Virus record (IMG/VR): IMGVR_UViG_3300037847_002271
Coordinates: 1-42,197 of that record
Length of the DNA: 42,197 bases
DNA from: a virus
Reading direction: 5' to 3' (one strand)
The notes below the pieces were generated by a model. That model had not been told where the DNA came from. It made no database searches and worked only from the letters and a program-made list of their open reading frames with translations. The position numbers were made by a program, and so were the translations under genes. Shown here in pieces: positions 5,403-17,833 of the stretch (position 1 is its first letter; each line of letters opens with the position of its first letter).

Positions 5403-5654
5403 ATGTTAGAGATTTTTGCTGCTGTGACAGGCGCTAGTGTCACCGCTGCTGCAATGTCCATAAACAATGCAGGCAAGCAAAACCTGCAGACCCGTGAAAC
5501 GTTGGCACGACTGACGATTGCAGTCGAAAACCTTGCTGAGCGGCTAAACGTTTTTCATGATGACGTAATGCGTAAAGACAGCGAAGTGTTCCAAAGGTTG
5601 CGGAATCTAGAAGCTTCAGTCGCAAGGCTTGAAGGGCAACAAAAACGCACCTAA
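5403..5654 (+). CDS. Small protein with hydrophobic N-terminus and coiled coil (83 aa)
   Basis: The N-terminal 20 residues (MLEIFAAVTGASVTAAAMSI) are hydrophobic and the rest is a heptad-rich helix ('LARLTIAVENLAERLNVFHD', 'LRNLEASVARLEGQQ'). A membrane anchor plus coiled coil is typical of XhlA-like lysis accessory proteins and of some spanins. It precedes another small hydrophobic protein and the C39 peptidase, so a lysis role is reasonable though unproven. Confidence 0.65.
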   Translation: MLEIFAAVTGASVTAAAMSINNAGKQNLQTRETLARLTIAVENLAERLNVFHDDVMRKDSEVFQRLRNLEASVARLEGQQKRT

Positions 5655-5657
5655 ACT

Positions 5658-5843
5658 GTGCGCGTTGCAGGTTTCCTCATGCTGCTGCTGTTCAAGCCAA
5701 TCTTGATGTCATTCATCAACAGCAAGGCTGTTCGTCAGTTGGTGATTGATTTGCTCAAGGCTGCAGCCAAACAATCAAGCAACACCGTCGATGACCAACT
5801 GGTTGCTCTTGTTGAGCGTAATCTGCTTGGCCCCAATGCTTAA
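5658..5843 (+). CDS. Small protein with hydrophobic N-terminus (61 aa, or 54 aa from ATG 5679)
   Basis: The GTG start at 5658 lies three bases after the preceding stop; an ATG at 5679 is the alternative. The N-terminus 'MRVAGFLMLLLFKPILMSFI' is hydrophobic and the remainder is amphipathic ('VRQLVIDLLKAAAKQSSNTV'). It overlaps the start of the peptidase gene by eight bases. It may be a membrane peptide of the lysis cassette; no family is recognised. Confidence 0.55.
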   Translation: MRVAGFLMLLLFKPILMSFINSKAVRQLVIDLLKAAAKQSSNTVDDQLVALVERNLLGPNA

Positions 5844-6513
5844 TTTGCTGAAGTATTTCGAGCATTTCAGGTTTGGTGATCCATATCAACATGCAGCCAT
5901 TGCACAGTTAGAGGAGGATTTGCCGCAGCATCTGAAGGATGAAGATGCGTTGTGGTTACAAGCATGGAAAGCCGCAGGTAAGGAGCAACAGGTTTATGCG
6001 CCCTATTACCATCAACTTTCATCAGAGACTGGTTTTGGCTACCGCGAATGCTTTTCTGCGGTGAGTGCGATGGCTGCCGCGTTTCATCAGCGCGTTGACA
6101 GTTTTGACCTTTACAACCGGATCAGAAAGCACCTAGGAGACACAACATCGGTTGATGTGCAGCTAAATGCGCTGCGCACTTTGGGGATTGACGCTGAGTT
6201 CAGGACTGATGGCACGTTTGATGATTTAGAGAACGAAATTGATGCCGGTCGTCCGGTGATTGTTATGTATCTCGACAAAGGATCAATAAGTGATCCTGTA
6301 TGCAATGACGACGGTTGCGGGCATGTTGTTCTTATCGTTGGCTACAACCGCGAAGAGCTAATCATTCATGACCCTATGGGCGTGCCAGACATGATCAATG
6401 GTGGTCATAAAAATCGCGAGCGTGCTGATTATGTACGCATTAGTCGTCAAGCATTCAAACCTAGGTGGGAAGTTGAAGGTGATGGCACAGGCTGGATGAT
6501 TATTACGCAGTAG
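5836..6513 (+). CDS. C39-like cysteine peptidase, candidate endolysin (225 aa)
   Basis: The protein fits the Peptidase_C39_2 fold: Cys72 in 'GYRECFSAVSAM', a long middle region, His163 in 'DGCGHVVLIVGYN' and Asp179 in 'LIIHDPMG', in the order expected for the Cys-His-Asp catalytic residues. The first 60 residues are a charged helical extension. No signal peptide is seen, so export would need a holin; small hydrophobic proteins lie directly upstream. ATG at 5836 overlaps the previous stop and is preferred over an ATG at 5746 inside that gene. Among genes in this window it is the best candidate for cutting peptidoglycan cross-links at lysis, but C39-like domains also mature peptides, so the role is inferred. 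Confidence 0.78.
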   Translation: MLNLLKYFEHFRFGDPYQHAAIAQLEEDLPQHLKDEDALWLQAWKAAGKEQQVYAPYYHQLSSETGFGYRECFSAVSAMAAAFHQRVDSFDLYNRIRKHLGDTTSVDVQLNALRTLGIDAEFRTDGTFDDLENEIDAGRPVIVMYLDKGSISDPVCNDDGCGHVVLIVGYNREELIIHDPMGVPDMINGGHKNRERADYVRISRQAFKPRWEVEGDGTGWMIITQ

Positions 6514-6576
6514 ATCGCCCTGGATAAACTGTAAACAGTTGCAGATGCCATTTGATGATGTATATCAGGCAACTGC

Positions 6577-6888
6577 ATGGAGCATGAAATTAACGAGACG
6601 GTTCTAGTTCCGCGTAAGAAAGCCAAAGAACGTTTCCGCAGCTCAATACATAGCGCATGGGGTTGGTCTTGTGCATATTGTGGCCGTGAATTATCTGAGC
6701 GTGATGCGACATTAGATCACGTCACTGCAAAAGCAAAAGGTGGTCTTACCGTACGCGAAAACCTTGTCAGTTGCTGTTTAGGCTGCAACAGCTCTAAAGG
6801 TCATCAGGACTGGCAAGAGTGGTATCAGCGACAAGAGTTTCACGAGAAATGCCGTGAGCGATGGATTGAAGATTGGTTAGAACAATAG
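6577..6888 (+). CDS. HNH endonuclease-like protein (103 aa)
   Basis: Contains the zinc-bound HNH core: 'CAYCGRELSERDATLDH', then 'VTAKAKGGLTVRENLVSC' and 'CLGCNSSKG'. Two CxxC pairs bind the structural zinc, and the His of LDH with the Asn of NLV form the active site. Phage HNH proteins may be free-standing homing endonucleases or take part in packaging. This one lies far from the terminase, between the lysis and nucleotide genes, so a homing or general nicking nuclease is more likely. The Trp/Glu-rich C-terminus is unremarkable. Confidence 0.85.
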   Translation: MEHEINETVLVPRKKAKERFRSSIHSAWGWSCAYCGRELSERDATLDHVTAKAKGGLTVRENLVSCCLGCNSSKGHQDWQEWYQRQEFHEKCRERWIEDWLEQ

Positions 6889-6913
6889 TAAAATTAAACG
6901 TCGAACATTTTTG

Positions 6914-7447
6914 ATGACTGTTCTTGCTGACTGGCAGATCCGCAGCTATTGCGAAAGCTCTCAAATGGTTCATCCCTTTGCGTTGGATCTACTCAATCCA
7001 GCATCGCTTGATGTGCGCCTTGGGTTTAACTTGATGATTGAAGTTGCAGATACGCCTGAGCTGCAACGTATTGATATTTCAGACCGCACCGCAGAAAAAC
7101 CGTATCTACTGCAGCCTGGTGAATTTTGCCTTGCTGAAACTGTTGAAACTTTCAACCTGCCTGACACGATTAGCTGTCAATTTGTCCTTAAATCAAGTCG
7201 CGCTAGGAGTGGGCTAAATCATCTTTTGGCCGGATGGTGTGATCCAGGTTGGCATGGTTCAAAACTTACACTTGAGCTAAAAAACGAACGCCGTTTTCAT
7301 GACATTCCGCTTTACCCGAATCTGAAGATTGGGCAGATGGTGTTTCACTACATGTCTGAAGTGCCTGTTAGATCTTATCGCCAGACCGGTCACTACAATA
7401 ACCATTTGACTGTGATGCCAGATATTGTTGGCAGGCAGACAGCTTGA
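6914..7447 (+). CDS. dcd: dCTP deaminase / dUTPase-family protein (177 aa)
   Basis: It belongs to the trimeric dCTP deaminase/dUTPase fold: 'LNPASLDVRLG' near residue 28, 'SSRARSGL' (94-101), 'WCDPGWHGSKLTLELKN' (108-124) with the Glu expected to be catalytic in dCTP deaminases, and 'LKIGQMVF' (137-144). The enzyme converts dCTP to dUTP and feeds dTTP synthesis. Length is close to the usual 180-190 residues. ATG at 6914 is chosen over TTG at 6911. The last 80 bases are overlapped in antisense by a small minus-strand gene. A bifunctional or dUTPase activity cannot be excluded from sequence alone. Confidence 0.88.
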   Translation: MTVLADWQIRSYCESSQMVHPFALDLLNPASLDVRLGFNLMIEVADTPELQRIDISDRTAEKPYLLQPGEFCLAETVETFNLPDTISCQFVLKSSRARSGLNHLLAGWCDPGWHGSKLTLELKNERRFHDIPLYPNLKIGQMVFHYMSEVPVRSYRQTGHYNNHLTVMPDIVGRQTA

Positions 7448-7625
7448 CACGATGTCGCCACATGTCTAACACCTGTTCATACCAGCAGGTAGCTTGCCAC
7501 TCTTGGTAGTGTTCTCGGGTCATTCCGGCATAAGTGACACGATACAATTTTCCATATTTTGTTTCAATTACGTCTAGTTTTGGTGCGGTGTTGTCGGTAT
7601 TCTGCGGCAAAGCTTTATTTTCCAT
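7368..7625 (-). CDS. Small hypothetical protein (85 aa), antisense to end of dcd
   Basis: An 85-residue protein with 'ETKYGKLYRVTYAGMTREHY' and 'WQATCWYEQVLDMWR', a composition typical of a folded small protein, and a polar C-terminus. The 3' 80 bases overlap the dcd 3' end in antisense. Its ATG lies in a CCATGG palindrome, so a plus-strand ATG (7624) overlaps it head to head. No family recognised; coding status is likely but not certain. Confidence 0.55.
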   Translation of the reverse strand: MENKALPQNTDNTAPKLDVIETKYGKLYRVTYAGMTREHYQEWQATCWYEQVLDMWRHRVKLSACQQYLASQSNGYCSDRSGDKI

Positions 7626-7647
7626 GGCTTGGGCTGGGTGGCAATGG

Positions 7648-7899
7648 ATGTCGGTTGAACTCCCTTTAGAGGAGCAACTAATGCTAGAGAGACAGGTGCG
7701 TGCAGTGCATGACCATGTTGATGCTAAAGAAATTGCCGAATTATGCAGCTCACTGATTAGGCAAAATTTCCATCAGCAAAAGCTGCTGCAGCAAGCAATC
7801 ACTAGGATCATGGAGCTTGAGACCATTGAGGAATACCAAGACGACGAACCTGAACCACTACCCTGGTGGCGAAATGTCCTTCTGCGTTTTAAGTCTTAA
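7648..7899 (+). CDS. Small helical protein, possibly NblA-like (83 aa)
   Basis: The protein begins MSVELPLEEQLMLERQVRAV and continues with two amphipathic helices ('AKEIAELCSSLIRQNFHQQK', 'LLQQAITRIMELE') and an acidic, Trp-containing tail. The 'LPLEEQ..LE.QV' start and 'L..LIRQ...Q+.LL...' second helix recall the helical hairpin of NblA, the adaptor that directs phycobilisomes to the Clp protease; NblA genes are known in several cyanophages. The match is short and NblA is usually about 60 residues, so it could equally be an unrelated helical protein. ATG 7648 is chosen; an ATG at 7624 would add eight residues. The 3' end overlaps the sigma-factor gene by 42 bases, convergently. Confidence 0.6.
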   Translation: MSVELPLEEQLMLERQVRAVHDHVDAKEIAELCSSLIRQNFHQQKLLQQAITRIMELETIEEYQDDEPEPLPWWRNVLLRFKS

Positions 7900-8754
7900 T
7901 TTACGTAATGCACGTTCTTTGATTTGACGAGTGCGTTCACGACAGATGTTCATTTCTGCGCCGATGTGCGCCAATGCTTCAGTCTTGTTGCTTAAAAAGT
8001 AACGCTGAATGATTTCATATTCTCGATCATTTAATGTATCTAGTGCATCATTTAATGCTTGATGGTTGGCGCATTTAATCGCCATGCTTTCAGTATCGGC
8101 ATGAGATGAAGGATCAGGGATTTGTTGGATCAATGGTGAACCATCATCGTGGCAAAGCATATCAAGGCTTCGATGTTGTTTTGCCCTTTCAAACCACATC
8201 ATGACTTCTTCTACGGGCCGTTCAGCATGTTCACTCATTTCTTGCAGCGTTGGTCTGCGGTGAAATTGCTGCTCATAATCATTCATCCATTTACAAAGAC
8301 GGTTAATTTTTTCCAATGTATTTTGCGGCAAACGCACAACACGCGATGACATGTCAATAGCTCTGGTGATGCTTTGCCTAATCCACCAATACGCATAGGT
8401 GCTGAATTTATAGCCACGGGTTCCATCGTATTTTTCGACAGCACGTTGCAAGCCTATGCAACCTTCCTGCACAAGGTCTGGCAGTTCTAGTATTGTGCCC
8501 TCAATTCGTGGTGCATATTTACGAGCAACATTTACAACCAGCCGTAGGTTGCCGTTTATCAACTTTTCCTTTGCACGACGACCTGAACGAACAACACGCT
8601 GCTCTTGTTTTGTCAGTGGTTCTTTGTCTAAATTTCGTTCTAACAGCAGATCTTGCATCGCAAAGATGCGACGCGACAGCTGTATTTCTTGCTCAGCTGA
8701 AAGCAATGGATGCTTGCCGATTTCATTTAGAAAGTGTCTGAACGAATCGGCCAT
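7858..8754 (-). CDS. Sigma-70 family RNA polymerase sigma factor (298 aa)
   Basis: All conserved parts of a primary-like sigma factor are present in order: region 1.2 ('SFRHFLNEIGKHPLLSAEQE'), region 2 ('LINGNLRLVVNVARKYA', 'DLVQEGCIGLQRAVEKYD', 'GYKFSTYAYWWIRQSITRAI'), region 3 ('RVVRLPQNTLEKINRL...RPTLQEM') and region 4 with its helix-turn-helix ('LAHIGAEMNICRERTRQIKE'). It lacks the long region 1.1. Region 2 closely resembles cyanobacterial group 1/2 factors. It would bind host core polymerase and redirect transcription, probably to phage late promoters. ATG 8754 directly follows a terminator hairpin and T-run, with no ribosome-binding site, so its expression may be attenuated. An upstream extension to 8883 reads through that hairpin and is rejected. 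Confidence 0.93.
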   Translation of the reverse strand: MADSFRHFLNEIGKHPLLSAEQEIQLSRRIFAMQDLLLERNLDKEPLTKQEQRVVRSGRRAKEKLINGNLRLVVNVARKYAPRIEGTILELPDLVQEGCIGLQRAVEKYDGTRGYKFSTYAYWWIRQSITRAIDMSSRVVRLPQNTLEKINRLCKWMNDYEQQFHRRPTLQEMSEHAERPVEEVMMWFERAKQHRSLDMLCHDDGSPLIQQIPDPSSHADTESMAIKCANHQALNDALDTLNDREYEIIQRYFLSNKTEALAHIGAEMNICRERTRQIKERALRKLRLKTQKDISPPG

Positions 8755-8755
8755 G

Positions 8756-8787
8756 AAAAAAGCTGCTACCGGCAAAGGGTAACAGCT
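8756..8787 (-). terminator. Intrinsic terminator/attenuator abutting the sigma-factor start codon
   Basis: On the minus strand, AGCTGTTACC pairs with GGTAGCAGCT (one mismatch, 7-base loop), then six T residues run to within one base of the sigma-factor ATG. It lies 31 bases past the ssb stop. It should terminate most early transcripts after ssb, so sigma expression would need readthrough or antitermination. Confidence 0.88.
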
Positions 8788-8818
8788 TGCGATTTTGGTG
8801 TCTATTGATTGTTGCAGC

Positions 8819-9145
8819 TTAGAAGGGCACCTCTGCATCGGTTGCGTTGTTTTCACGCGCTGGCAAGGTGAAGTCAGTGACATTCACGTTTAAGCTCTGT
8901 TTTTCAGTGCCATCCTGTGTTGTGTAGCTGTTCAGCTTGCCTTGCCCAGCGATAGTGATCTTTGCACCCTTGCGAAGGTATTCAGCGGCAGTCTGAGCGC
9001 GTTTGCCCCACACAGCGCAGTTCATCCATGTCGTTTCATCTTTGCCGGTACGAACAGCAAGGCTGAAGCTTGCAACTTGATTTTGCCCGACGTTTTTCAG
9101 TTCAGGGTCTTTGCCGAGGTTGCCGTATGCAGTGATGTTGAGCAT
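8819..9145 (-). CDS. ssb: Single-stranded DNA-binding protein (108 aa)
   Basis: OB-fold SSB: 'MLNITAYGNLGKDPELKNVG', 'VASFSLAVRTGKDETTWMNC', 'AVWGKRAQTAAEYLRKGAKI', 'GQGKLNSY'. The end DAEVPF is a shortened form of the acidic DDDIPF-like tip by which SSB recruits partner proteins. It coats single strands during replication and recombination. It lies three bases after the HTH gene and is last before the terminator, in an operon with an annealing protein and an exonuclease. Confidence 0.95.
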   Translation of the reverse strand: MLNITAYGNLGKDPELKNVGQNQVASFSLAVRTGKDETTWMNCAVWGKRAQTAAEYLRKGAKITIAGQGKLNSYTTQDGTEKQSLNVNVTDFTLPARENNATDAEVPF

Positions 9146-9148
9146 TGA

Positions 9149-9373
9149 TCAGTTGATGGGTGTGATGTTGTTGGATTGCTCCCAGGCAAGAACGTCTGCG
9201 AGCTTGTAGCGAATCATTGGTGTTTTCGGTGAAATACCAAGGGGACCAACTCTGTAAAAAGCTGGCCCTTGTCCACGAGAACGCCAACGCTTGATGGTGT
9301 TTGGTTTTAGGTCATAACGAACGGATAGATCTTCAGTGGTGAGATAAGTGTTGATGTCGTCAGTGCTGGTCAT
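9149..9373 (-). CDS. AlpA/excisionase-type HTH DNA-binding protein (74 aa)
   Basis: A winged-helix protein of the MerR/AlpA/excisionase superfamily: 'YLTTEDLSVRYDLKPNTIKR' forms the helix-turn-helix, 'WRSRGQGPAFYRVG' the wing, and 'IRYKLADVLAWEQS' the following helix. Such proteins are excisionases or small regulators. No integrase is present in the window, so a regulatory role is more likely. Its start overlaps the erf stop (ATGA). Confidence 0.85.
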   Translation of the reverse strand: MTSTDDINTYLTTEDLSVRYDLKPNTIKRWRSRGQGPAFYRVGPLGISPKTPMIRYKLADVLAWEQSNNITPIN

Positions 9374-9972
9374 TTTTCAAATTCTTTCAGCTCTGATTGT
9401 TTGTTAAGCAGCAGCTTCAGCAGATCATCGTATTCCTGTTTGCTGATGTCTTTTTTGTCGAACCGTTCAGCAACACGTTTGCTTAGATCAGATAATGAAT
9501 CAAGCGTCTTTGCTGCTTTAATTGCCTTTTGCCCAGCTTGAAAGGCTTGAGATGCAACCGCTTGTTTTACGTTTGCAGGTTTAGCTTGCGCTGGTGTTGT
9601 CTTGTTTGATGGCGGCAGATCAGGTACATCATCGGTATCCATATCAGCCACGACGCCTAAGATCGCGCAGATTGAAAACCTACGTTGATAGGTAACGGCT
9701 TTGCCCCATTCCTGGGTCATGTTGCGACCGTCGCACATGATCAATTTGCAGGAACTGGATAACGTCTCGCCGCTTTCGTGGTGCAGCGTAGTGACCAGCG
9801 AATCATCAAGAAACGTTTGAGTGATTGCCAAACCATTTGCGTGCAGTGCAGGTGTCACGGTAGAAAGCACATTCGCCAGATCAGCAAACTTGCCGTAGTT
9901 GGCGCGTGCATTCTTTTCGATCTTGTCCACGGCTTTATGGAAGCCGATCAGTGCTTTTGTCAGTTCAGACAT
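9370..9972 (-). CDS. erf: ERF-family single-strand annealing protein (200 aa)
   Basis: ERF superfamily features: N-terminal 'FHKAVDKIEKNARANYGKFA', 'VTPALHANGLAITQTF', and the diagnostic 'GKAVTYQRRFSICAILGVVA' followed by 'DMDTDDVPD' (residues about 90-118). The C-terminal half is a Lys/Ala-rich linker with a helical end. ERF proteins anneal complementary single strands in phage recombination and genome circularisation. It overlaps the exonuclease stop by one base (TGATG) and the HTH start (ATGA). With the RecE-like exonuclease and SSB it forms a complete annealing system. Confidence 0.93.
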   Translation of the reverse strand: MSELTKALIGFHKAVDKIEKNARANYGKFADLANVLSTVTPALHANGLAITQTFLDDSLVTTLHHESGETLSSSCKLIMCDGRNMTQEWGKAVTYQRRFSICAILGVVADMDTDDVPDLPPSNKTTPAQAKPANVKQAVASQAFQAGQKAIKAAKTLDSLSDLSKRVAERFDKKDISKQEYDDLLKLLLNKQSELKEFEK

Positions 9973-10784
9973 CAGAAATCATCAGGTGAAAGTTCGATGT
10001 TTGTGGCGTAGCTAGGCAGTGACAGCGTTGAAATGTCATTGCTATAGCCAGGCCACTGGTTGCGTTCCTTGCAAGTCTTGATGCGGTTCATGTCACGTTG
10101 CCGCAACTCCTCACCAATCCCGCAGGCTTCGTTGTCGAGTTCATAAACACCCACGTTAAATGGATATTCTTTTTCGACAGCAACAAAAACAAATCGTGCT
10201 GCTTTAGTGCCCTGCAGATAGTGCATCTGCTGGACGTGATACCTCCACTTCGCAACGCTTGAGGCAAAACCGCGTGGGCTTGCATCTTGCGTTGTCTTGA
10301 GGTCTATAACAATATCACCGTTCCACCAATCAGGGCGACATTTGCAACGCAACTCAAACTGTTCATCATCCCACCAAACTGATTGTTCGGCTTTGCCTTC
10401 TGATAACAACCAGGCAGCTTCAGGATGATTACGAACAGAGTCGCACATCGCTAACGCTTGATCCCATTGCGCTTGGGTTACAGGTTCAATCCCTTGGTCG
10501 ATCAGCTTGTTGTAAGTTGTGGAGCCTTTGCGAGTGGCGCAGACTGCATAACGTCGATCAAGATCGTCAGGTTCAAGAACAGCAGTGTGAACAAAAGTGC
10601 CAAGCCGCATAGCAGCAGTAGATTCGGACGGAGGCCGTTCAGGATCGAGATACTTTTTAAAGTAGGTGTGCGGGTTGTGCGAGATTGCGTGCAGGTGTGA
10701 TGCTGAAATTGCTGGGTCGGCATGATACTCAGCATTAGAAATCATTGAGTATATGCCAGTGCTAGCGGAGGGTAACACGGTCAT
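9972..10784 (-). CDS. RecE-like PD-(D/E)XK exonuclease (DUF3799 type, 270 aa)
   Basis: The N-terminal 'YHADPAISASHLHAISHNPH' and 'AAMRLGTFVHTAVLEPD' (His66) and the core 'CRPDWWNGDIVIDLKTTQDA' (Asp152, Asp161, Lys163), with a following 'YHVQQMHYL' helix, match the PD-(D/E)XK exonucleases related to the nuclease domain of RecE. The expected activity is 5'-3' degradation of double-stranded DNA to give tails for annealing. The downstream ERF gene overlaps by one base, which supports a functional pair. The start at 10784 overlaps the previous stop (ATGA). Confidence 0.9.
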   Translation of the reverse strand: MTVLPSASTGIYSMISNAEYHADPAISASHLHAISHNPHTYFKKYLDPERPPSESTAAMRLGTFVHTAVLEPDDLDRRYAVCATRKGSTTYNKLIDQGIEPVTQAQWDQALAMCDSVRNHPEAAWLLSEGKAEQSVWWDDEQFELRCKCRPDWWNGDIVIDLKTTQDASPRGFASSVAKWRYHVQQMHYLQGTKAARFVFVAVEKEYPFNVGVYELDNEACGIGEELRQRDMNRIKTCKERNQWPGYSNDISTLSLPSYATNIELSPDDF

Positions 10785-10930
10785 CTTGACTCCGCAAGAG
10801 CTTTACAGGCTTTGACTACACCGGCTTCGCAGTCTCTTTGGGTTAGATCATCCAATGTCTGCGTGAGCGAAACCCAGAACGCCCAGGCAAACAATGAAAC
10901 AAAAGTGAGGACAACTCCGAAGTTTTTCAT
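10781..10930 (-). CDS. Small single-pass membrane protein (49 aa)
   Basis: Starting at ATG 10930, the product is MKNFGVVLTFVSLFAWAFWV followed by a short Cys-containing soluble tail. The first 25 residues form one transmembrane helix, and the tail has two Cys ('RDCEAGVVKACKAL'). The frame continues upstream without a good start, so 10930 is chosen. It overlaps the exonuclease start (ATGA). Function unknown. Confidence 0.6.
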   Translation of the reverse strand: MKNFGVVLTFVSLFAWAFWVSLTQTLDDLTQRDCEAGVVKACKALAESR

Positions 10931-11019
10931 AGTAGAATTTGGGAGAACTTTGCCAAAAGGCGAAGGACAAGTCACTTGCAGCGGATCAGGTGTGAGGGGT
11001 GCAGATGCGTGAGTCGGCC

Positions 11020-11250
11020 CTAGTCCGCAACTATTGAAACGGTGCGTGAGTTGCGATCGTCTCTGCGCCATTTGATGTTTTCTAATGGCACGGGCTTTTC
11101 ACGTGTTTGACGTGTGTAAAAGCGATGCTTGCAATCAAGGCATTCACGCAAACGAATCAGGTCATAAGTGCGGCGCTCGTTAAGGTTGCTTTTTACCTTT
11201 GTGGGACCGAAGCATTCGGGACAAGTTGGAATTGAAAAGCTCGCTGGCAT
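11020..11250 (-). CDS. Zinc-ribbon protein resembling the NrdR N-terminal domain (76 aa)
   Basis: Two Cys pairs (CPEC near residue 9 and CLDC near residue 37) with 'LRECLDCKHRFYTRQTRE' between and after them form a zinc ribbon of the kind at the N-terminus of the NrdR repressor. The ATP-cone of NrdR is missing, so it is not a full NrdR. A small DNA-binding regulator is plausible. Overlaps the previous stop by one base (TAATG). Confidence 0.75.
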   Translation of the reverse strand: MPASFSIPTCPECFGPTKVKSNLNERRTYDLIRLRECLDCKHRFYTRQTREKPVPLENIKWRRDDRNSRTVSIVAD

Positions 11251-11480
11251 TACTGCACTTCAGTTTCGACGGTGTAGGTGAAGCCAGCAGCAATAGCATC
11301 ACGAATCAATGACTCGCGTTCTTCTTCATCCGTTGCCCATTCAGTCCACTGCAGGCGATCGCCAATGAAGGCTTCGATGTAGTAGATAGTCTTGGGTTCT
11401 GTTTTTTGAAGCTGTTTGCCGCGATCAAGCATGTCCTGCATGAACTCGTATTGATTGAGGGTAATGTTGTGAAAGTCCAT
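11250..11480 (-). CDS. Small hypothetical protein (76 aa)
   Basis: ATG 11480 gives MDFHNITLNQYEFMQDMLDR and so on, a mixed alpha/beta protein with 'TIYYIEAFIGDRLQWTEWAT' and an acidic helix; a TTG at 11516 would extend it by 12 residues. It lies in the minus-strand early operon just after a stable intercistronic hairpin. No family recognised. Confidence 0.65.
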   Translation of the reverse strand: MDFHNITLNQYEFMQDMLDRGKQLQKTEPKTIYYIEAFIGDRLQWTEWATDEEERESLIRDAIAAGFTYTVETEVQ

Positions 11481-11544
11481 TAAAAGCGCGGGAGTTGTGG
11501 TGCTGGCTTGTTCCAAGCTGGTGGCTTGAGCGGGAGTGTTTTTT

Positions 11545-11563
11545 CGCCCGGAAGTACCGGGCG
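11545..11563 (-). other. GC-rich intercistronic hairpin without T-run
   Basis: A perfect 7-bp stem (CGCCCGG / CCGGGCG) with a five-base loop lies between two early genes. On the minus-strand mRNA it is followed by A residues rather than U, so it is not a terminator; it may stabilise or process the transcript. Confidence 0.55.
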
Positions 11564-11589
11564 TTGCTTGCGAATGATGGTGATCATGA

Positions 11590-11754
11590 TCAGCGGCTTG
11601 CGATTTCGGCTTTGATCAGGCCGATGATTTCTTTGCTGCGTGCAGCGGCTTCAGCGTTTTTCATGCGTGCAGCCTGTGCAGAGAAGTCGCAAAGGTTGTC
11701 AAGCAAGATCTCAGTGGAAAGGGTGCTGATGCGTTCTGCGGTGAAGAAGTTCAT
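11590..11754 (-). CDS. Small helical protein (54 aa)
   Basis: From ATG 11754 the frame encodes MNFFTAERISTLSTEILLDN, then 'FSAQAARMKNAEAAARSKEI' and 'IGLIKAEIASR', almost entirely amphipathic helix. It sits in the early minus-strand operon and its stop lies inside a TGATCATGATCA palindrome. No family recognised; coding status is judged from composition and its place in the operon. Confidence 0.6.
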   Translation of the reverse strand: MNFFTAERISTLSTEILLDNLCDFSAQAARMKNAEAAARSKEIIGLIKAEIASR

Positions 11755-11799
11755 GGGGTGTTGGTTTGAACTGATCTAAAGATACCCGAGCTTCACCCC

Positions 11800-11818
11800 T
11801 TGTGTACCCATTGTGTGC
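11800..11818. repeat. Two TTGTGTRC half-sites one helical turn apart
   Basis: TTGTGTAC and TTGTGTGC start 11 bp apart, in the gap upstream of the 54-residue gene. Same-face spacing fits a binding site for a small regulator, but chance cannot be excluded. Confidence 0.3.
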
Positions 11819-11822
11819 AGGT

Positions 11823-11912
11823 TCAACGATTGGCACGCAACTGGTTTTCAAGGCCAACCACGATCCCTGCCAAAAGCACCAGCGTCAACCCACTACAGAT
11901 GTAAAGTGTCAT
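11823..11912 (-). CDS. Membrane micro-protein (29 aa)
   Basis: A 29-residue frame starting at an ATGA overlap with the TM-HTH gene: MTLYICSGLTLVLLAGIVVG and a short polar end. It is one hydrophobic helix with a positive C-terminus. An AGGAG lies 12 bases before the ATG. The coupling to the preceding membrane-HTH gene suggests that the two products act together. Confidence 0.5.
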   Translation of the reverse strand: MTLYICSGLTLVLLAGIVVGLENQLRANR

Positions 11913-12094
11913 GCCATAGACCATCTCCTAGCGGTAGTCTGACTGCACTTGTATCTGATGGCGATTTGTTTCCAGGTTGCACCATTCCGGCGCATACGCT
12001 GAATGCGGGTGTGACGCGATTCAGTAGCCCAAAGCAACAAGACTACTGGAAACAGCACCACAACCAGCACCCACGCGAAGAAGCAGGTGGTCAT
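11909..12094 (-). CDS. Membrane-anchored helix-turn-helix protein (61 aa)
   Basis: A strongly hydrophobic N-terminal helix (FFAWVLVVVLFPVVLLLWA) is followed by 'RIQRMRRNGATWKQIAIRYK' and 'CSQTTARRWS', a homeodomain-like HTH similar to those that scan for 'G.s..eIA...g.s..TV.+.'. It is the first gene after the minus-strand TATAAT promoter. A 61-residue protein with both a membrane segment and an HTH is unusual; it could tether DNA to the membrane or act as a membrane-regulated repressor. The opposing plus-strand frame is Pro/His-rich and looks non-coding. Confidence 0.65.
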   Translation of the reverse strand: MTTCFFAWVLVVVLFPVVLLLWATESRHTRIQRMRRNGATWKQIAIRYKCSQTTARRWSMA

Positions 12095-12114
12095 GATTCA
12101 GTTGTAAAATGGGG

Positions 12115-12141
12115 TGGTGGCCGATCGCAGCTCGACCACCA
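12115..12141 (-). promoter_or_regulatory. Leader hairpin of the early minus-strand operon
   Basis: In the leader of the minus-strand operon, TGGTGGTCGA pairs with TCGGCCACCA (one G-T pair) around a 7-base loop, followed by CCCCATTTTAC, 21 bases before the ATG at 12094. It may act as a weak attenuator or protect the mRNA 5' end. Confidence 0.5.
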
Positions 12142-12209
12142 AAGCTGACCCTTATCGTGTCTAGGGCAGAGAATCCAGCGCCGATCTATCTGGCTTGTGG
12201 CGTGAACCT

Positions 12210-12238
12210 ATTATACACCAGATGTGCCCCCATTGCAA
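12210..12238 (-). promoter_or_regulatory. Sigma-70 promoter for the early minus-strand operon
   Basis: On the minus strand, TTGCAA (-35), a 17-base spacer and a perfect TATAAT (-10) form the best promoter seen in the window. Transcription would start near 12203, giving a leader of about 110 bases to the first gene at 12094. Confidence 0.75.
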
Positions 12239-12250
12239 CGCGTTCAACGC
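12237..12250. promoter_or_regulatory. Overlapping palindromes, operator candidate
   Basis: AACGCGTT and GCGTTCAACGC, two perfect palindromes, overlap at the -35 box of the minus-strand promoter and lie upstream of the divergent plus-strand promoter. This is a position from which one repressor could control both. Confidence 0.4.
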
Positions 12251-12274
12251 TTGTAACAGCATGAGCACCATGCC

Positions 12275-12303
12275 TTGACCTGTCTCCTATACATTAGTAA
12301 CAA
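12275..12303 (+). promoter_or_regulatory. Candidate plus-strand promoter
   Basis: TTGACC, 17 bases, TAACAA; the predicted start lies just before the ATG at 12318. The -35 box is good and the -10 box is moderate. Confidence 0.5.
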
Positions 12304-12317
12304 CAGCTACTAAATCA

Positions 12318-12455
12318 ATGAACGTGCTTTCACTCCTCCAGCGCAAAGAGCAAAAGCAGCAACTGCTTAAGATCGCTCAAAAGCAATCACTGCAGCCTTC
12401 GCAGCTCTGCTATCGCGGCGTTTGCTATTCAACAGTCAAAGCGGAATCACGGTGA
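12318..12455 (+). CDS. Small DUF4278-like peptide (45 aa)
   Basis: MNVLSLLQRKEQKQQLLKIA, then 'LCYRGVCYSTVKAESR'. The 'LxYRGVxY' motif is the hallmark of DUF4278 peptides common in cyanobacteria, whose function is unknown. A plus-strand promoter candidate lies just upstream. The last 20 bases overlap the RusA gene in antisense. The motif points to a cyanobacterial host. Confidence 0.6.
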   Translation: MNVLSLLQRKEQKQQLLKIAQKQSLQPSQLCYRGVCYSTVKAESR

Positions 12456-12870
12456 TCAATGCGCCAGGCGGTTCACTGCCAACGCAATACCGCTTTTCTG
12501 CATTCAGACTCACCACAAGACAATCATCAGCAAACACGCTGTCGGTCAGTGCATCAAGCGTTGACCGGCAGCATTTATCAATGTCGTTTCGTTTCACAAC
12601 GCAGTGCTTAGGCGCTGCTGCCTTTAGTTGTTGATTTGTTGTGAAATGTGCCTTCGGTCGTTTGAATCGAAATATCACGGACACGCTGCAAGCGCAAGTC
12701 AATAGCTCACATTCTTGATCCTTCATTTGCTGTTGTGCGCACGCTGAAACAGCTTGCCTCCATGGCTTGCATCGTTTGGATGCTTCGATTAGTCTTCCGC
12801 CACCCACATGGCGCTTACTGCCTTGTGGTGCTGGTTCAATATCGTTCACCGCGATATGGATCACTTCCAT
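12436..12870 (-). CDS. rusA: RusA-like Holliday junction resolvase (144 aa)
   Basis: The catalytic signature 'KRNDIDKCCRSTLDALTDSV' followed by 'FADDCLVVSLNAEKRY' supplies the conserved Asp residues (about 96, 98, 106, 115, 116) and Lys126 of RusA-family endonucleases. N-terminal 'PAPQGSKRH' is the usual substrate-binding strand. Length fits the family (120-145). It would resolve branched DNA before packaging. It is divergent from the plus-strand gene at 12895, with only 24 bases between the starts. Confidence 0.92.
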   Translation of the reverse strand: MEVIHIAVNDIEPAPQGSKRHVGGGRLIEASKRCKPWRQAVSACAQQQMKDQECELLTCACSVSVIFRFKRPKAHFTTNQQLKAAAPKHCVVKRNDIDKCCRSTLDALTDSVFADDCLVVSLNAEKRYCVGSEPPGALITVIPL

Positions 12871-12894
12871 CCTTCATTCATTGCTTCGCACAGC

Positions 12895-13434
12895 ATGACG
12901 GCAAATCTCAGCCTTCCACAGTCAAGCGGTTCAAACTTTAAATTCCAAACAGGAACAATCATCAGCCTTTGCCCTGGCAAGAATTTTTTCTACACGCACG
13001 TTGCCGGGCAGCTTTGCATGACATGGCTTGATGACGACAAGACTTTGAAAAAGGACATGCTGCGTTGCGGTGACAACGTGTCTCTAATGGGTGTGATTGA
13101 AACCACCGATGGTGGCAGGGCACCATATAAAGGCAACTGCGTTCCGCTTCCGTTGCAGATTGATGCACTAAAGCGTTCCATTGAATATCGACTCGCAAAG
13201 CAAGAAACTGTCGAGACGATTGAGATTGAAAAACAGGAGATTCCTGTTCAACAATCTGTGCAACGTGCTGACATTGGCCGGAAACCTCGCGTCACGATCA
13301 CAGAAGATTTCTTGGCTGATTATGTAGCTGAATGGGCTGCAGCCAAGAATTACACCACAGCAAATTCTGCAAGCAAAGCAGTGATGGACATTATTCGTGC
13401 AGCAATGCGTGCAGGGCTGAAGCCGAATGAATGA
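12895..13434 (+). CDS. Hypothetical early protein (179 aa)
   Basis: From ATG 12895 the protein has a beta-rich N-terminal half ('NFKFQTGTIISLCPGKNFFY', 'MTWLDDDKTLKKDML') and a C-terminal helical part ('TEDFLADYVAEWAAAKNYTT') that could be a small DNA-binding fold. An upstream ATG at 12808 would overlap the RusA coding region and is rejected. The 3' end overlaps the next gene by eight bases. No family recognised. Its position before the replication gene suggests a DNA-metabolism role. Confidence 0.7.
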   Translation: MTANLSLPQSSGSNFKFQTGTIISLCPGKNFFYTHVAGQLCMTWLDDDKTLKKDMLRCGDNVSLMGVIETTDGGRAPYKGNCVPLPLQIDALKRSIEYRLAKQETVETIEIEKQEIPVQQSVQRADIGRKPRVTITEDFLADYVAEWAAAKNYTTANSASKAVMDIIRAAMRAGLKPNE

Positions 13435-13669
13435 AGCACAACGCAAACAGCTTCTGGCTGCATTGATCAAGGACCGCGATGAAACACGCGCTGCCCTTGA
13501 ATTCATCAAACAGCAAAAGCAACACGAAGAAACCCTCTATTGGGAAACCGGCGTGATTCGTGAAACCACACGTTTTGATGATTCACAGCTCAGGCGTCAT
13601 GCTGACTGTCTTTTCATGCAGCATGAACAGACCTTGAAGGCGTATTTCCAATCAATGAAATCGCCGTAG
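13427..13669 (+). CDS. Small charged helical protein (80 aa)
   Basis: MNEAQRKQLLAALIKDRDET, followed by more charged helix ('FIKQQKQHEETLYWETGVIR') and 'FDDSQLRRHADCLFMQHEQT'. Almost entirely helical with heptad character. Overlaps the upstream gene by eight bases, so translation is probably coupled. Followed by a hairpin that is a terminator only in the opposite direction. Function unknown. Confidence 0.7.
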   Translation: MNEAQRKQLLAALIKDRDETRAALEFIKQQKQHEETLYWETGVIRETTRFDDSQLRRHADCLFMQHEQTLKAYFQSMKSP

Positions 13670-13686
13670 AATTAACGGCACGCAAT

Positions 13687-13712
13687 AAAAAAGCCACCGC
13701 GCCAACGGTGGC
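13687..13712 (-). terminator. Intrinsic terminator in antisense orientation before the replication gene
   Basis: On the minus strand GCCACCG pairs with CGGTGGC (6-base loop) and is followed by six T. No minus-strand gene ends here. On the plus strand the same stem, extended by outer CACGCA/TGCGTG pairing, lacks a proper T-run. It could end an antisense RNA made from the origin side. Confidence 0.75.
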
Positions 13713-13741
13713 TTGCGTGTCCAGAAGGACAACACCCCTAA

Positions 13742-13816
13742 GCACAACTCAGCAGCACACCTAGTTGCACAACTCAGTTGCACACCTAGTTACACAACTC
13801 AGCAGCACACCTGGAG
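13742..13816. repeat. Three 25-bp direct repeats (iteron/operator-like) before the O-like gene
   Basis: Three contiguous 25-bp units, each of the form RCACAACTCAGYWGCACACC plus five more bases, at 13742, 13767 and 13792. The second contains the palindrome CAACTCAGTTG. The third runs into the GGAGG ribosome-binding site of the replication gene at 13825, so protein bound here could block its own expression. Confidence 0.88.
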
Positions 13817-13824
13817 GGTAGCAC

Positions 13825-14631
13825 ATGCCAAACAAAATCAGTGCAAGCGGATTCGCTGCACTTCCGTACAAGCTCATGGATCAAGCCGATGCTGCTACAT
13901 GGGCGGTTTATGCCGTCTTGCATCGTCACGGCTGGAACTCAGACCAAGGGTGCTGGACATCGTTAGAGACGATCCGCACTGAAACAGGCATTAGCCGCAA
14001 GGTGATCCAGCGTTCACTTGCGTGGTTAAAGGACAGCGGTTGGGTTGAAGCCCAAAAGCGCCCTGGTTATAGCACGGTGTACTTCGTCAAAACCGATGCA
14101 CCAACAAAGGTTTCACCTAGGGCGAAAAAGACCCAGGTCGAATTTGACCCAGGTCAAAAACGACCTAACCCCCAGGGCGAAAACGACCTAACCCCTAGGT
14201 CAAAAACGACCTACGAACAAGAACCCAAGAACAAGAACCCAAGAACAAAAACCCAAGGCGCAAGCGCCGAAAACGGGAACAAGGATCCAAACCGACTCAA
14301 GAAGCTGCCACCGTCGTCTGTGCCAGGTGACTTAACCGGCTGCGGTGACTTGCTTATCGAGTTTTGGTCTGTGAAAAAGGGTGTGCGTTCGACACCAGTG
14401 CTTAATCGGATCTGCAAGAAGCTGCGCCAGTGGTCGCTACAAGACCGCAGAACGGCCCTAGAAGCAGCGATCACCTCTGGCTGGGGTGATGTGTTCCCAC
14501 CGCGAAAACAAGCCGGTTACAGCCCCGCACAGGAGCCAGAACACAAGCACCCAGCGCATCGCGTGTTTACCGCTGATCGTGGTTTTAATGATCAGCCCGC
14601 AACAAATCCAATCCTTAAGGATCTCTTTTGA
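13825..14631 (+). CDS. Replication initiator-like protein, lambda O-type organisation (268 aa)
   Basis: The N-terminal 100 residues form a winged HTH ('ALPYKLMDQADAATWAVYAV', 'GCWTSLETIRTETGISRKVI', 'SLAWLKDSGWVEAQKRPGYS') of the kind in phage replication proteins that bind iterons. The middle (about residues 98-150) is low-complexity and hydrophilic, and here the DNA itself carries iterons and A-rich repeats. The C-terminal part ('GDLLIEFWSVKKGVRSTPVL', 'LRQWSLQDRRTALEAAITSG') is helical and may recruit host replication proteins. The arrangement of DNA-binding head, origin within the linker and C-terminal loader-interaction domain is that of lambda O. A strong GGAGG precedes the ATG. Confidence 0.8.
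   Translation: MPNKISASGFAALPYKLMDQADAATWAVYAVLHRHGWNSDQGCWTSLETIRTETGISRKVIQRSLAWLKDSGWVEAQKRPGYSTVYFVKTDAPTKVSPRAKKTQVEFDPGQKRPNPQGENDLTPRSKTTYEQEPKNKNPRTKTQGASAENGNKDPNRLKKLPPSSVPGDLTGCGDLLIEFWSVKKGVRSTPVLNRICKKLRQWSLQDRRTALEAAITSGWGDVFPPRKQAGYSPAQEPEHKHPAHRVFTADRGFNDQPATNPILKDLF
14119..14212. repeat. Replication origin iterons inside the O-like gene (5 copies)
   Basis: Five 16-bp dyad units of consensus AGGKCRAAAAMGACCY (one has an AATTT centre) start at 14119, 14135, 14151, 14174 and 14197; the third and fifth are identical (AGGTCAAAAACGACCT). Spacings are 16, 16, 23 and 23 bp. Form and location match the lambda origin iterons, which are also dyads with an A-rich centre inside the initiator gene. 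Confidence 0.85.
14215..14256. repeat. A-rich 14-bp triplicate next to the iterons, candidate unwinding element
   Basis: GAACAAGAACCCAA occurs twice exactly and a third time with one change, at 14215, 14229 and 14243. The plus strand has no T in this stretch. Its place directly beside the iterons corresponds to the easily melted part of the lambda origin. Confidence 0.7.
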
Positions 14632-14822
14632 TGTCAACTACAGCTTTTGATTTAACTTCTGTGCGCCACAAGCTGCGGCACATGGTTGAACAAGGTCTCG
14701 TCACAATCGAACAGCTTGATCAACCCTCGCCAGGCTTCAGATCCAACATGAATGTTTCACTGCATCACTTCCCTTCTGGTTATCGCGGCGTGCGACACCA
14801 AAACCTGCTTCGCGATCAATGA
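14631..14822 (+). CDS. Small hypothetical protein (63 aa)
   Basis: ATG 14631 overlaps the initiator stop (TGATG). The N-terminal helix 'SVRHKLRHMVEQGLVTIEQL' is followed by 'FPSGYRGVRHQNLLRDQ'. Start and stop both overlap neighbours, as in a tight operon. No family recognised. Confidence 0.65.
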   Translation: MSTTAFDLTSVRHKLRHMVEQGLVTIEQLDQPSPGFRSNMNVSLHHFPSGYRGVRHQNLLRDQ

Positions 14823-15073
14823 AAACCGACACATTTAAATGCAACGGCTTGATCATTGAACGTCGCGAAACACGTGAAGGCCCATCCCCATACTTTGTCA
14901 CCTACTACAAAAACACCTCGCGCATCACCACTGATGTCAAATCAATCAAGCGTCAGCTCAAACTCGGTAGAGGCACAGAAACCCTCCAACAGCTCAACGA
15001 TTGGCTGGAATCTTTTTCTCCAAAAGTCGCAGCCCTCCCCGAAGCGTCAAAACACACTGCAGATGCTGCTTAA
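14819..15073 (+). CDS. Small hypothetical protein (84 aa)
   Basis: MKTDTFKCNGLIIERRETRE with beta strands then 'VKSIKRQLKLGRGTETLQQL', an alpha/beta small protein. Overlaps the previous gene by ATGA and the next by eleven bases. Probably real from the coupling; function unknown. Confidence 0.65.
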   Translation: MKTDTFKCNGLIIERRETREGPSPYFVTYYKNTSRITTDVKSIKRQLKLGRGTETLQQLNDWLESFSPKVAALPEASKHTADAA

Positions 15074-15278
15074 CAACATGTTCGACGTTTCCCAACGTCA
15101 AGAACCAGTTATCGACATGCTTGCAGACTTGCTAGACGAAGCCAAGGCAACTGCTGCTGCAATATCTGACAATGCAATCGAAGAGCATCGGCCAATCCCA
15201 AAAGACTTGCTACGATCCCTCAACAATGACCTTGAACGCATCAAGGCTTACTTATTGACTGCTGCTGATGTCGCTTAG
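15063..15278 (+). CDS. Small helical protein (71 aa)
   Basis: From ATG 15063: MLLNNMFDVSQRQEPVIDML, 'ADLLDEAKATAAAISDNAIE', 'LLRSLNNDLERIKAYLL'; helical and acidic. An alternative ATG is at 15078. It overlaps both neighbours. The acidic helical profile would suit a partner of the following RHH protein, but this is speculation. Confidence 0.6.
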   Translation: MLLNNMFDVSQRQEPVIDMLADLLDEAKATAAAISDNAIEEHRPIPKDLLRSLNNDLERIKAYLLTAADVA

Positions 15279-15531
15279 AAGGTTTACTCTCCGTCTTGAT
15301 GAAAAAGACATTGAAATCATCGACAGACTTGCGGACGAACAAAACAGCACACGCGCTGACATCATCCGCAACTCACTGCATCAAAAAGCAATCACAACCG
15401 ATGCACTGCATCAGGTGACAACTGCCATCCGCAAACGTTTTCATGGCATCTTCACTGCACAACAGGCAGAACAAGCCGCAGCCATTGCAATCTTCACCAT
15501 CGCGGCGAATCAGCAGCAAAAGGCTGCGTAG
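15268..15531 (+). CDS. Ribbon-helix-helix DNA-binding protein (87 aa)
   Basis: The N-terminus 'SLRRFTLRLDEKDIEIIDRL' plus 'ADEQNSTRADIIRNSLHQKA' has the beta strand and two helices of CopG/Arc-type repressors (strand residues R-F-T-L-R-L contact DNA as a dimer). The rest is Ala/Gln-rich helix. It likely regulates nearby phage genes. Overlaps the preceding gene by eleven bases. Confidence 0.8.
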   Translation: MSLRRFTLRLDEKDIEIIDRLADEQNSTRADIIRNSLHQKAITTDALHQVTTAIRKRFHGIFTAQQAEQAAAIAIFTIAANQQQKAA

Positions 15532-15634
15532 CATCCTCAACACCTACGACGACTTCTACACATCCCTGTATCACGATCGCCTCAATCCTCAACCGCAAAA
15601 TGAGCAGCAGCTACTTTCACGATTGGATCGCTGA
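15443..15634 (+). CDS. Possible small protein overlapping the RHH gene (63 aa, doubtful)
   Basis: The second half ('ILNTYDDFYTSLYHDRLNPQ') looks coding and fills the 68-base gap after the RHH gene, but the first half overlaps that gene in another frame and looks like shadow sequence. A start nearer 15520 would need a non-standard codon. Confidence 0.3.
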   Translation: MASSLHNRQNKPQPLQSSPSRRISSKRLRSILNTYDDFYTSLYHDRLNPQPQNEQQLLSRLDR

Positions 15635-15818
15635 CATTGCACCACAAGCAATGCAACCTGTACTACCCGAAGCGCAGGACACTGAAGCCATGATGGATCG
15701 TGTCATCCTTCTGGAACTTCTTTTTCATCTAGACAAACGCTTCGATCGCAATCACCCGCATCACAACACCTACACCGGTCTCTGGCAGCAATACCAAAAC
15801 AATGGCAACCATCTCTGA
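15600..15818 (+). CDS. Small hypothetical protein (72 aa)
   Basis: MSSSYFHDWIADIAPQAMQP, then an acidic helix 'AMMDRVILLELLFHLDKRFD' and a His/Asn-rich end. Overlaps the next gene by 17 bases. No family recognised. Confidence 0.6.
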   Translation: MSSSYFHDWIADIAPQAMQPVLPEAQDTEAMMDRVILLELLFHLDKRFDRNHPHHNTYTGLWQQYQNNGNHL

Positions 15819-15990
15819 AAAGTACATCGGCAACCACGAAGTACACACCAGCCCGCGTGGCAGTAAGTACATCATCACTGACGATGGCCGAAAGCTCTAC
15901 ATCTCAAACACCAACAAAACCTATCGCCGCAGCTTCACTCCGCCACGCGGTGCATACGCTCGTTTCCTAAATGCACAAAACTCTGTATAG
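15802..15990 (+). CDS. Small basic hypothetical protein (62 aa)
   Basis: MATISEKYIGNHEVHTSPRG, then 'SKYIITDDGRKLYISNTNKT' and a basic Tyr/Arg tail. Beta-rich; the end 'PRGAYARFLNAQNSV' is Arg-rich. It closes the chain of small genes before the terminase module. Confidence 0.65.
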   Translation: MATISEKYIGNHEVHTSPRGSKYIITDDGRKLYISNTNKTYRRSFTPPRGAYARFLNAQNSV

Positions 15991-16012
15991 TCAAAGCAAT
16001 AATTAAAGCTGC

Positions 16013-16333
16013 ATGGCCCGAAAAGGCATAAAAGCAGAAACTGATTTACGAGTTCAGGAATGCGCTCGAATTCTTGCTAATGGTGGCAAGCGTTCAGATT
16101 GTCTTCGGTACGCTTCCGAACATTGGGGTGTAAGTGATCGTTCTGTTGATTCCTACCTGAAGCTTGCACGCGAACAAATGAGGGCAGACTGGGATTTAGA
16201 ACGCCCGCAGATGGTTGCTGATTTGCTGTCGCAATGCTCAACCTTGCAGATGGAAGCACGGCAGAAAGGACATCTCAGTGTTGCCCTGGGCGCCATCAAC
16301 ACCGCAGCCAAACTCGCACAACTCGTTTCATGA
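16013..16333 (+). CDS. Terminase small subunit (106 aa)
   Basis: The N-terminal HTH ('ECARILANGGKRSDCLRYAS', 'EHWGVSDRSVDSYLKLARE') would bind the packaging site, and the C-terminal 'GHLSVALGAINTAAKLAQL' helix is typical for small terminases of this type. It lies two short genes before the large subunit. The stop overlaps the next start (ATGA). Confidence 0.82.
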   Translation: MARKGIKAETDLRVQECARILANGGKRSDCLRYASEHWGVSDRSVDSYLKLAREQMRADWDLERPQMVADLLSQCSTLQMEARQKGHLSVALGAINTAAKLAQLVS

Positions 16334-16512
16334 CTGAGATTCAGCCCGTTAAGAATGAAGAGTTCTGGTACGAACCCACAGAAGACAGCATGTATCGCGT
16401 GCACATGAAGATCAATGATGTGACTGCATCTTGCACAGTGTCGTCGATGCACTTGATCGAAGAAAAGCGTGCGCAACTGCGCGGTGCATGTTTGCGTAAT
16501 GTCGATTCTTGA
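16330..16512 (+). CDS. Small hypothetical protein between terminase subunits (60 aa)
   Basis: MTEIQPVKNEEFWYEPTEDS and 'MYRVHMKINDVTASCTVSSM' give a beta-rich domain, followed by a helix 'HLIEEKRAQLRGACLRNVDS'. Overlaps both terminase genes by a few bases, implying coupled expression. Could be a packaging accessory; no family recognised. Confidence 0.7.
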   Translation: MTEIQPVKNEEFWYEPTEDSMYRVHMKINDVTASCTVSSMHLIEEKRAQLRGACLRNVDS

Positions 16513-17833
16513 TACTGCACCGATCGGGCATATTCTTGGCGATTCTCAAGCACTTGACGCTGACAAGCTGCTAAATCGCATCAAGTCTGATCTGCACCCA
16601 GGACAGCTTGCATTTGTCGATGATCAAGACTCGCAGATCTTGGCAATATCAGCCGGTTACGGTGCAGGCAAAACTAGAGCATTATGCGCTAAAACCCTTG
16701 CGCTGGCGATTGCGAATCAAGGTTTCATCGGTTGCGTCATGGAACCTACAGGTCCTTTGATCCGTGACATCTGGCTCAATGACTTTGACGATTTTCTAGA
16801 GCAATACGAAATCCCGCATACCTTTAGGGCATCTCCACTGCCAGAATATATCTTGCATCTGCCTGGTGGTGATACGAAAATCCTGTGCCGCAGCTTTGAG
16901 AATTATCAACGGATCATCGGTTTGAACCTCGCATTTTGCTGTGCCGATGAGGTTGACGTTGTAAACACTGCGATCACATCAAGAGCTTTCCCTAAGATCC
17001 TCGGTCGTTTGCGTTCCGGTAACACCAGACAGTTTGCGGCAGCATCGACGCCAGAGGGTTTTAAGTGGTTGTATAACGAGTTTGGGACTTCTGATGCGCT
17101 CGAACGTCCAGACCGAAAGCTTATCAAGATGAAGACAGTAGATAATCCACATCTGCCGTCTGACTTTATTGAACGCCTAAAAGCTAACTACGATCCAAGC
17201 TTGCTGAAAGCGTATCTAGACGGTGAGTTTGTAAACCTGAACACGGGACAGGTTTATGACAGATTTGATCGTGAGAAGCATGTCATAAAATCCTTCGATG
17301 CTGGTAGTGAACCTTTGCACGTCGGCGTTGACTTCAACATCGGCAACATGAGTGCGGTGATCGCAGTGCGCACACCTGATAAGCTGATTGTTATAGATGA
17401 AATCAGCGGTGGTCATGACACAGATGCCATCGGACAAGAAATTAAAAGGCGTTATCCCCACCGTCAGCTATATGCCTACCCTGACGCATCTGGCGGAAAT
17501 CGAAGCACGAACGCCACGAGAACCGACATCGAAATTTTGCAAAGCTACGGATTCAGCAATCAATCAGAAAGGTCAAATCCTCCCGTCCGTGATCGGGTGG
17601 CTGCTGCACAAGCTGCTTTGGAAAATGGGAAAGGACAAGTAAGAGTGCAGATTACGGAAAACTGCAAACGCACGATTGAATGCTTGGAACTGCAAAGCTA
17701 CAAGGAAGATGGCACCCCGGACAAAGATGCAGGCTATGACCACATGAATGATGCTTTGACCTACATGTTGTGGCGTCTGTTTAATCCACTACATGCAAGG
17801 GCAGGTCGTGGAACTGGCATCAGAATTTACTAG
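16499..17833 (+). CDS. Terminase large subunit (444 aa)
   Basis: ATPase domain: Walker A 'SAGYGAGKT' (about residues 51-59), Walker B 'LAFCCADEVD' (about 144-153) and 'AASTPEG' as the coupling motif. Nuclease domain: 'VGVDFNIGN' (Asp near 278), 'YPDASG' (Asp near 329) and 'DHMNDALTYML' (Asp near 414) give the RNase H-like metal site. This is the motor that pumps DNA into the capsid and cuts it. ATG 16499 is chosen; the frame runs ten residues further upstream only in the overlap with the previous gene. Packaging strategy (headful or cos) cannot be read from the window. Confidence 0.95.
   Translation: MSILDTAPIGHILGDSQALDADKLLNRIKSDLHPGQLAFVDDQDSQILAISAGYGAGKTRALCAKTLALAIANQGFIGCVMEPTGPLIRDIWLNDFDDFLEQYEIPHTFRASPLPEYILHLPGGDTKILCRSFENYQRIIGLNLAFCCADEVDVVNTAITSRAFPKILGRLRSGNTRQFAAASTPEGFKWLYNEFGTSDALERPDRKLIKMKTVDNPHLPSDFIERLKANYDPSLLKAYLDGEFVNLNTGQVYDRFDREKHVIKSFDAGSEPLHVGVDFNIGNMSAVIAVRTPDKLIVIDEISGGHDTDAIGQEIKRRYPHRQLYAYPDASGGNRSTNATRTDIEILQSYGFSNQSERSNPPVRDRVAAAQAALENGKGQVRVQITENCKRTIECLELQSYKEDGTPDKDAGYDHMNDALTYMLWRLFNPLHARAGRGTGIRIY

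Follow-up and report, generated by a model that had tools for sequence, protein, structure and literature searches.

Sigma genes are common in small cyanosiphoviruses, and a review lists putative sigma factors in 65 of 153 cyanophages (PMC10452541). Phage P-SS2 carries one group-2 and one group-3 sigma factor (PMC2784084), and those of S-CBS1 and S-CBS3, whose genomes are credited to Huang et al. (2012, as cited in PMC3751600), are annotated as group-2 in their records. According to the account given in PMC10452541, acetyl-CoA reportedly rose 1.9-fold in Synechococcus elongatus expressing the S-CBS3 homologue (Sawa et al., 2019). Gp47 of phage 7-11 and gp36 of phiEco32 are also phage-encoded sigma factors using the host core enzyme; they are distant sigmas with a late-promoter consensus of their own, proven by experiment (PMC8948821). 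In the lysozyme gene e of phage T4, a hairpin at the start of the gene has a promoter at its 5' arm, such that only the RNA from this internal promoter escapes the hairpin (PMC3014915, section 29).

Here we describe a sigma gene in a virus contig with a siphovirus-like gene set (terminase, portal, scaffold, major head protein, tape measure, tail genes, and endolysin). Hereafter, the window is the whole stretch analysed, 42,197 nucleotides of IMG/VR record IMGVR_UViG_3300037847_002271. The protein belongs to a known type of cyanosiphovirus sigma factor and has the same four regions as the RpsD4, group-2 or RpoD-like sigmas of S-CBS1 (30 kb), S-CBS3 (33 kb), S-LBS1 (35 kb), and KBS-S-2A (41 kb). 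The first-pass annotation of this DNA had called such a gene uncommon in phages of this size; with homologues in these four cyanophages and in hundreds of IMG/VR stretches, that claim does not hold.

The sigma gene and its neighborhood

Judged by its sequence, the minus strand from 8754 to 7858 encodes a sigma-70 factor. The features considered were the following:

7858 to 8754, minus: coding sequence P0001, sigma-70 factor of 298 aa (open frame, Pfam, NCBIfam, PHROG, AlphaFold)
8653 to 8748, minus: region 1.2, residues 3-34 (Pfam E-value 2e-12)
8353 to 8562, minus: region 2, for core binding, -10 recognition and melting, residues 65-134 (Pfam 1e-18)
8110 to 8313, minus: region 3, residues 148-215 (Pfam 4e-7)
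7894 to 8046, minus: region 4, for -35 recognition, residues 237-287 (Pfam 1e-12)
8819 to 9145, minus: single-strand DNA-binding protein (ssb), upstream neighbor (PF00436, phrog_44)
9370 to 9972, minus: Erf-like ssDNA annealing protein
9972 to 10784, minus: exonuclease VIII-like protein
12436 to 12870, minus: RusA-like resolvase
5746 to 6513, plus: endolysin, convergent with sigma
12210 to 12238, minus: promoter-like TTGCAA-17-TATAAT, candidate promoter for the early genes that follow it leftward (consensus match only)

The frame, open throughout on the minus strand, runs from the ATG at 8754 to the TAG finishing at 7858, which agrees exactly with the first-pass annotation in its coordinates, given there without a strand, whereas the plus-strand reading of the same interval is interrupted by many stops. 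A longer version starting at the in-frame ATG at 8883 was rejected; its 44 added residues overlap ssb and fall outside all sigma matches. Regions 1.2, 2, 3, and 4, already named in the first-pass annotation, each exceeded the curated Pfam cut-off. Membership of the sigma-70 family is indicated by regions 2 and 4 together with the core-binding and -10/-35 contact residues; region 1.1 is absent, with nothing N-terminal to region 1.2. The top NCBIfam model was the cyanobacterial RpoD/SigA-family TIGR02997, whose 384.5-bit cut-off was not reached (254.8 bits), and the protein therefore appears related to this family but divergent. PHROG 351 (RNA polymerase sigma factor) matched at 1.7e-72, and the AlphaFold model (mean pLDDT 81) could be matched along its entire length to sigma chains in transcription initiation complexes, with TM-scores of about 0.45, as expected because sigma domains lie spread over the polymerase.

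The genes in the window are ordered RusA, exonuclease VIII, Erf, an HTH protein, ssb, and then sigma, converging on dCTP deaminase and endolysin. Among the relatives in which the respective gene was found, the exonuclease was upstream on the strand of sigma in 45 of 45 and ssb likewise in 28 of 28; the endolysin was on the opposite strand and downstream of sigma in 44 of 44. The sigma genes of S-CBS1, S-CBS3, KBS-S-2A, and S-LBS1 also follow early recombination/ssb genes and are convergent with lysis genes (a lysozyme gene in S-LBS1); the order of recombination genes, sigma, and convergent endolysin is widely kept in the genomes compared. The place of sigma at the end of the recombination/ssb block agrees with its earlier description as the last gene of the early operon; however, sigma appears to have its own promoter behind a hairpin (see below) and is therefore probably more than the final cistron of that operon. 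Moreover, the leftward block may extend beyond sigma, because downstream of it, on the same strand, is a frame of 85 aa (7368-7625, minus) that matched no family.

Other observations concern the surroundings of this block. The dCTP deaminase gene (6911-7447), beside the endolysin gene, converges on sigma in 31 relatives, and 8 others have it upstream on the strand of sigma. The TTGCAA-17-TATAAT site (12238-12210) falls within the 919 nt (11517-12435, minus) that separate RusA from the next gene model chosen, and a search of close relatives for a similar pattern found no counterpart. Tandem repeats of 25 nt and of 23 nt/14 nt, at 13742-13812 and 14148-14257, are located just before and inside an O-like replication initiator gene (13825-14631) and are likely a replication origin of the lambda-O type. 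Synechococcus phage S-H1 (L204) has head genes like those of the window, and no sigma is annotated within the S-H1 stretch shown. Rfam and tRNA searches gave no match.

Relationship to phage and cyanobacterial sigma factors

The nearest deposited phage genes encode proteins 45% (S-CBS1), 44% (KBS-S-2A), and 39% (S-CBS3) identical to the window sigma. In IMG/VR, identities among relatives reach 98%, and the related stretches number at least 597, including many that are more distant. The phylogeny against host sigma groups proposed in the first-pass annotation was run, and it found a link to cyanobacterial sigmas. An 88-row tree contained a long-branch pair, L193 (host) and L061 (phage); the tree with cellular outgroups, made without L193, gathered the phage sigmas, among them those of S-CBS1, S-CBS3, and KBS-S-2A (the three tested), in one clade (support 98/94). 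A starred branch of this tree (97/91) sets SigA, the main group-2 block and sigmas from other phyla apart from the phage clade, such that the window protein lies outside the SigA-plus-outgroup side. The neighbors of the clade are picocyanobacterial accessory group-2 lineages, the fine order on that side being moderately supported. Within the clade, the sigmas of the window, S-CBS1, and KBS-S-2A share a 14-row subclade (95/84), and this clustering together with the same gene order places the protein in the cyanosiphovirus RpsD4/RpoD-like lineage.

We take these data to mean that a group-2-type gene was captured long ago and has since persisted in phages, because no sampled cellular or cyanobacterial sigma exceeded about 45% identity and the phage sigmas form a clade of their own. 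The earlier suggestion that the gene was taken from a host would thus stand as to the cyanobacterial link, with the capture placed far back. A recent capture of a host primary sigma gene would agree with the best NCBIfam match being a cyanobacterial RpoD/SigA-family model, but it is already contradicted by the separate phage clade, by that low ceiling of identity and by a group-2 residue, Tyr, at E. coli position 432; we give it almost no weight.

Position 432 also bears on the class of the protein. It is Thr in cyanobacterial SigA and most other primary sigmas and Tyr in the window sigma, as in all 22 sigmas of the phage clade; cyanobacterial group-2 sigmas have Tyr, with Phe in one lineage. 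The SigA/RpoD equivalog model NF005643 gave 204 bits, under its 500-bit cut-off. The protein has the group-2 trait of primary-like regions 1.2-4 without region 1.1, a TIGR02997 score under the cut-off, and a tree position next to group-2 lineages that is moderately supported. It is best called group-2-like because it lacks region 1.1, has Tyr at 432, and falls in a clade made up of phage sigmas alone, next to group-2 sigmas of picocyanobacteria, and the term primary used in the first-pass annotation should be dropped on these grounds, on the NF005643 score and on the separation from SigA in the tree. Those picocyanobacterial sigmas (L170/L174/L179 and L188/L189/L192), its neighbors in the tree, share the contact residues and have Tyr or Phe at 432, but they are cellular, about 38-42% identical, and keep H455 where the window sigma has Asn.

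Residues and promoters to be recognized

For the comparison with E. coli RpoD, we took Y425, F427, T429, Y430, W433, and W434 to be the melting residues, R436, Q437, T440, and R441 the -10 contacts, E458 the extended -10 residue, and R584, E585, R586, R588, and Q589 the -35 contacts. Equivalents of all six melting residues and of the four -10 contacts are kept in region 2 of the phage sigma, and those of the five -35 contacts in region 4; in region 3, the E458 equivalent is kept and H455 is replaced by Asn. Because the -10 and -35 contact residues match those of a housekeeping sigma, ordinary sigma-70-type promoters are the predicted targets.

The first-pass annotation had instead supposed that the protein could switch the host polymerase to phage promoters. 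In its strongest form, a new promoter specificity would turn on the late genes, as in phage 7-11, whose sigma recognizes late promoters (PMC8948821), or phiEco32, and the position of the sigma gene before convergent lysis genes would suit this role. The contact residues, the same as in RpoD, speak against it, and so do the searches for a late or middle phage promoter class, which were of limited power with one genome and few leaders. The 17 plus-strand leaders shared no motif when gapped 4-mers and 6-mers were compared with coding controls, and TGnTAnnnT near gene starts of the window was not above chance. Near matches in the window to the promoter of the sigma gene itself (see below) numbered 6 vs 8.3 expected, its pattern being matched exactly only before sigma, and sigma-70 consensus sites in 5500-16600 numbered 10 vs 11.4 expected. 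Unlike the 7-11 and phiEco32 proteins, the window sigma has residues that, with the missing motif, argue against a new promoter code, and we consider a late-gene switch of that kind improbable.

The leader of the sigma gene

The gap between ssb and sigma is 64 nt long and contains TAGACA-N17-TACCCT with a TGn extension, as well as a hairpin:

8776 to 8804, minus: predicted sigma-gene promoter, -35 TAGACA (8804-8799), 17-nt spacer with TGT as its last bases (8784-8782), -10 TACCCT (8781-8776), with conserved spacing
8760 to 8788, minus: hairpin with an 11-pair stem and a 7-nt loop, its 5' arm overlapping the -10 element
8756 to 8761, minus: run of six T, the first two of which close the 3' arm, one base before the ATG, intrinsic-terminator-like

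Transcription is predicted to start near 8769. The spacer measured 17 nt in the window and in each of the ten relatives compared (11/11) despite its changing sequence. Of 44 dereplicated relatives, 14 had TGnTAnnnT no more than 60 nt before the sigma gene, compared with 1.7 expected by shuffling (maximum 6 in 1000 shuffles). A σ70-type promoter-like element is, by this comparison of sequences, conserved at the sigma gene.

The hairpin is separated from the ATG by four T and one C. Its stability of -15.7 kcal/mol is unusual locally (z -4.7 to -6.1), whereas the fold over a longer stretch of 111 nt is ordinary (z -1.3); the 41-nt sigma leader gave the strongest fold among the genes examined. Four of the 11 pairs were altered on both sides, which none of 500 shuffles equaled, in an alignment of 8 distinct rows reflecting mostly two lineage changes. 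All 9 occurrences of the hairpin core motif in IMG/VR precede this sigma gene, and the hairpin is limited to the subclade of the window; the sigma genes of KBS-S-2A, S-CBS1, and S-CBS3 do not have it, their proteins being 39-45% identical to that of the window. A short hairpin, ACCC-TAC-GGGT followed by TTTTTC, also stands immediately before the ATG of the head scaffold gene (about 21490-21510), with a similar one in S-H1.

The hairpin could serve only to end the early operon behind ssb, as an intrinsic terminator, with sigma as an independent unit and an overlap devoid of timing function. A T run after the 11-pair stem and the separate, conserved sigma promoter would fit such a terminator; however, L010-L012 have lost the T run and retain a stem through compensating changes, such that termination is not conserved in them. 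Because the stem outlives the T run, these relatives favor a role beyond termination, and a plain terminator need overlap neither the -10 element of the next gene nor abut its start codon. We therefore regard the plain terminator as unlikely, although it has more to be said for it than the late-gene switch.

Discussion

Our preferred reading, to which we assign a probability of roughly 65%, is that of a functional group-2-like phage sigma acting on ordinary sigma-70-type promoters, whose gene would be gated by a hairpin-overlapping promoter in the subclade of the window. The phage protein would replace the host sigma on the host core RNA polymerase and steer it to such promoters, not through a new promoter code, and phage transcription may then be favored by competition, by dose or by escape from host sigma control. 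As a group-2 relative, the protein might chiefly reprogram host metabolism and stress genes, a host group-2 regulon, rather than phage genes, and the altered acetyl-CoA reported for the S-CBS3 homologue in PMC10452541 points the same way; however, overexpressing any sigma can alter metabolism, and we see this alternative as having a small chance of being right.

With regard to the gating proposed in our preferred reading, the predicted elements resemble the T4 gene e leader in layout: a hairpin stands at the gene start, and its 5' arm overlaps an internal promoter. The T4 case differs in its gene and in its promoter type, and experimental proof belongs to T4 only. By this analogy, early read-through RNA would form the hairpin, and either transcription would terminate or the start codon region would be hidden, leaving sigma silent on that RNA in the subclade. 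RNA started inside the 5' arm, near 8769, would hold the 3' arm only and could be translated. Since translation would come from the internal-promoter RNA without the 5' arm, sigma may appear on its own schedule and perhaps be autoregulated. Such a timing device, in which early read-through makes no sigma and a switch protein is released from its own, perhaps sigma-dependent, promoter, is a tentative proposal to which we give somewhat less than even odds. A search of open papers not closely aimed at it found no published description of a hairpin-overlapping sigma promoter, which may be a new detail of a sigma gene of known type.

Many small cyanosiphoviruses carry such a sigma, and the timing of their genes is the question on which it bears. 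The hundreds of relatives, the kept gene order, and the conserved sigma promoter offer concrete targets for the study of timed or self-controlled sigma expression. If the gating is true, a timing device would stand at the head of the transcription program in a subclade of cyanosiphoviruses.
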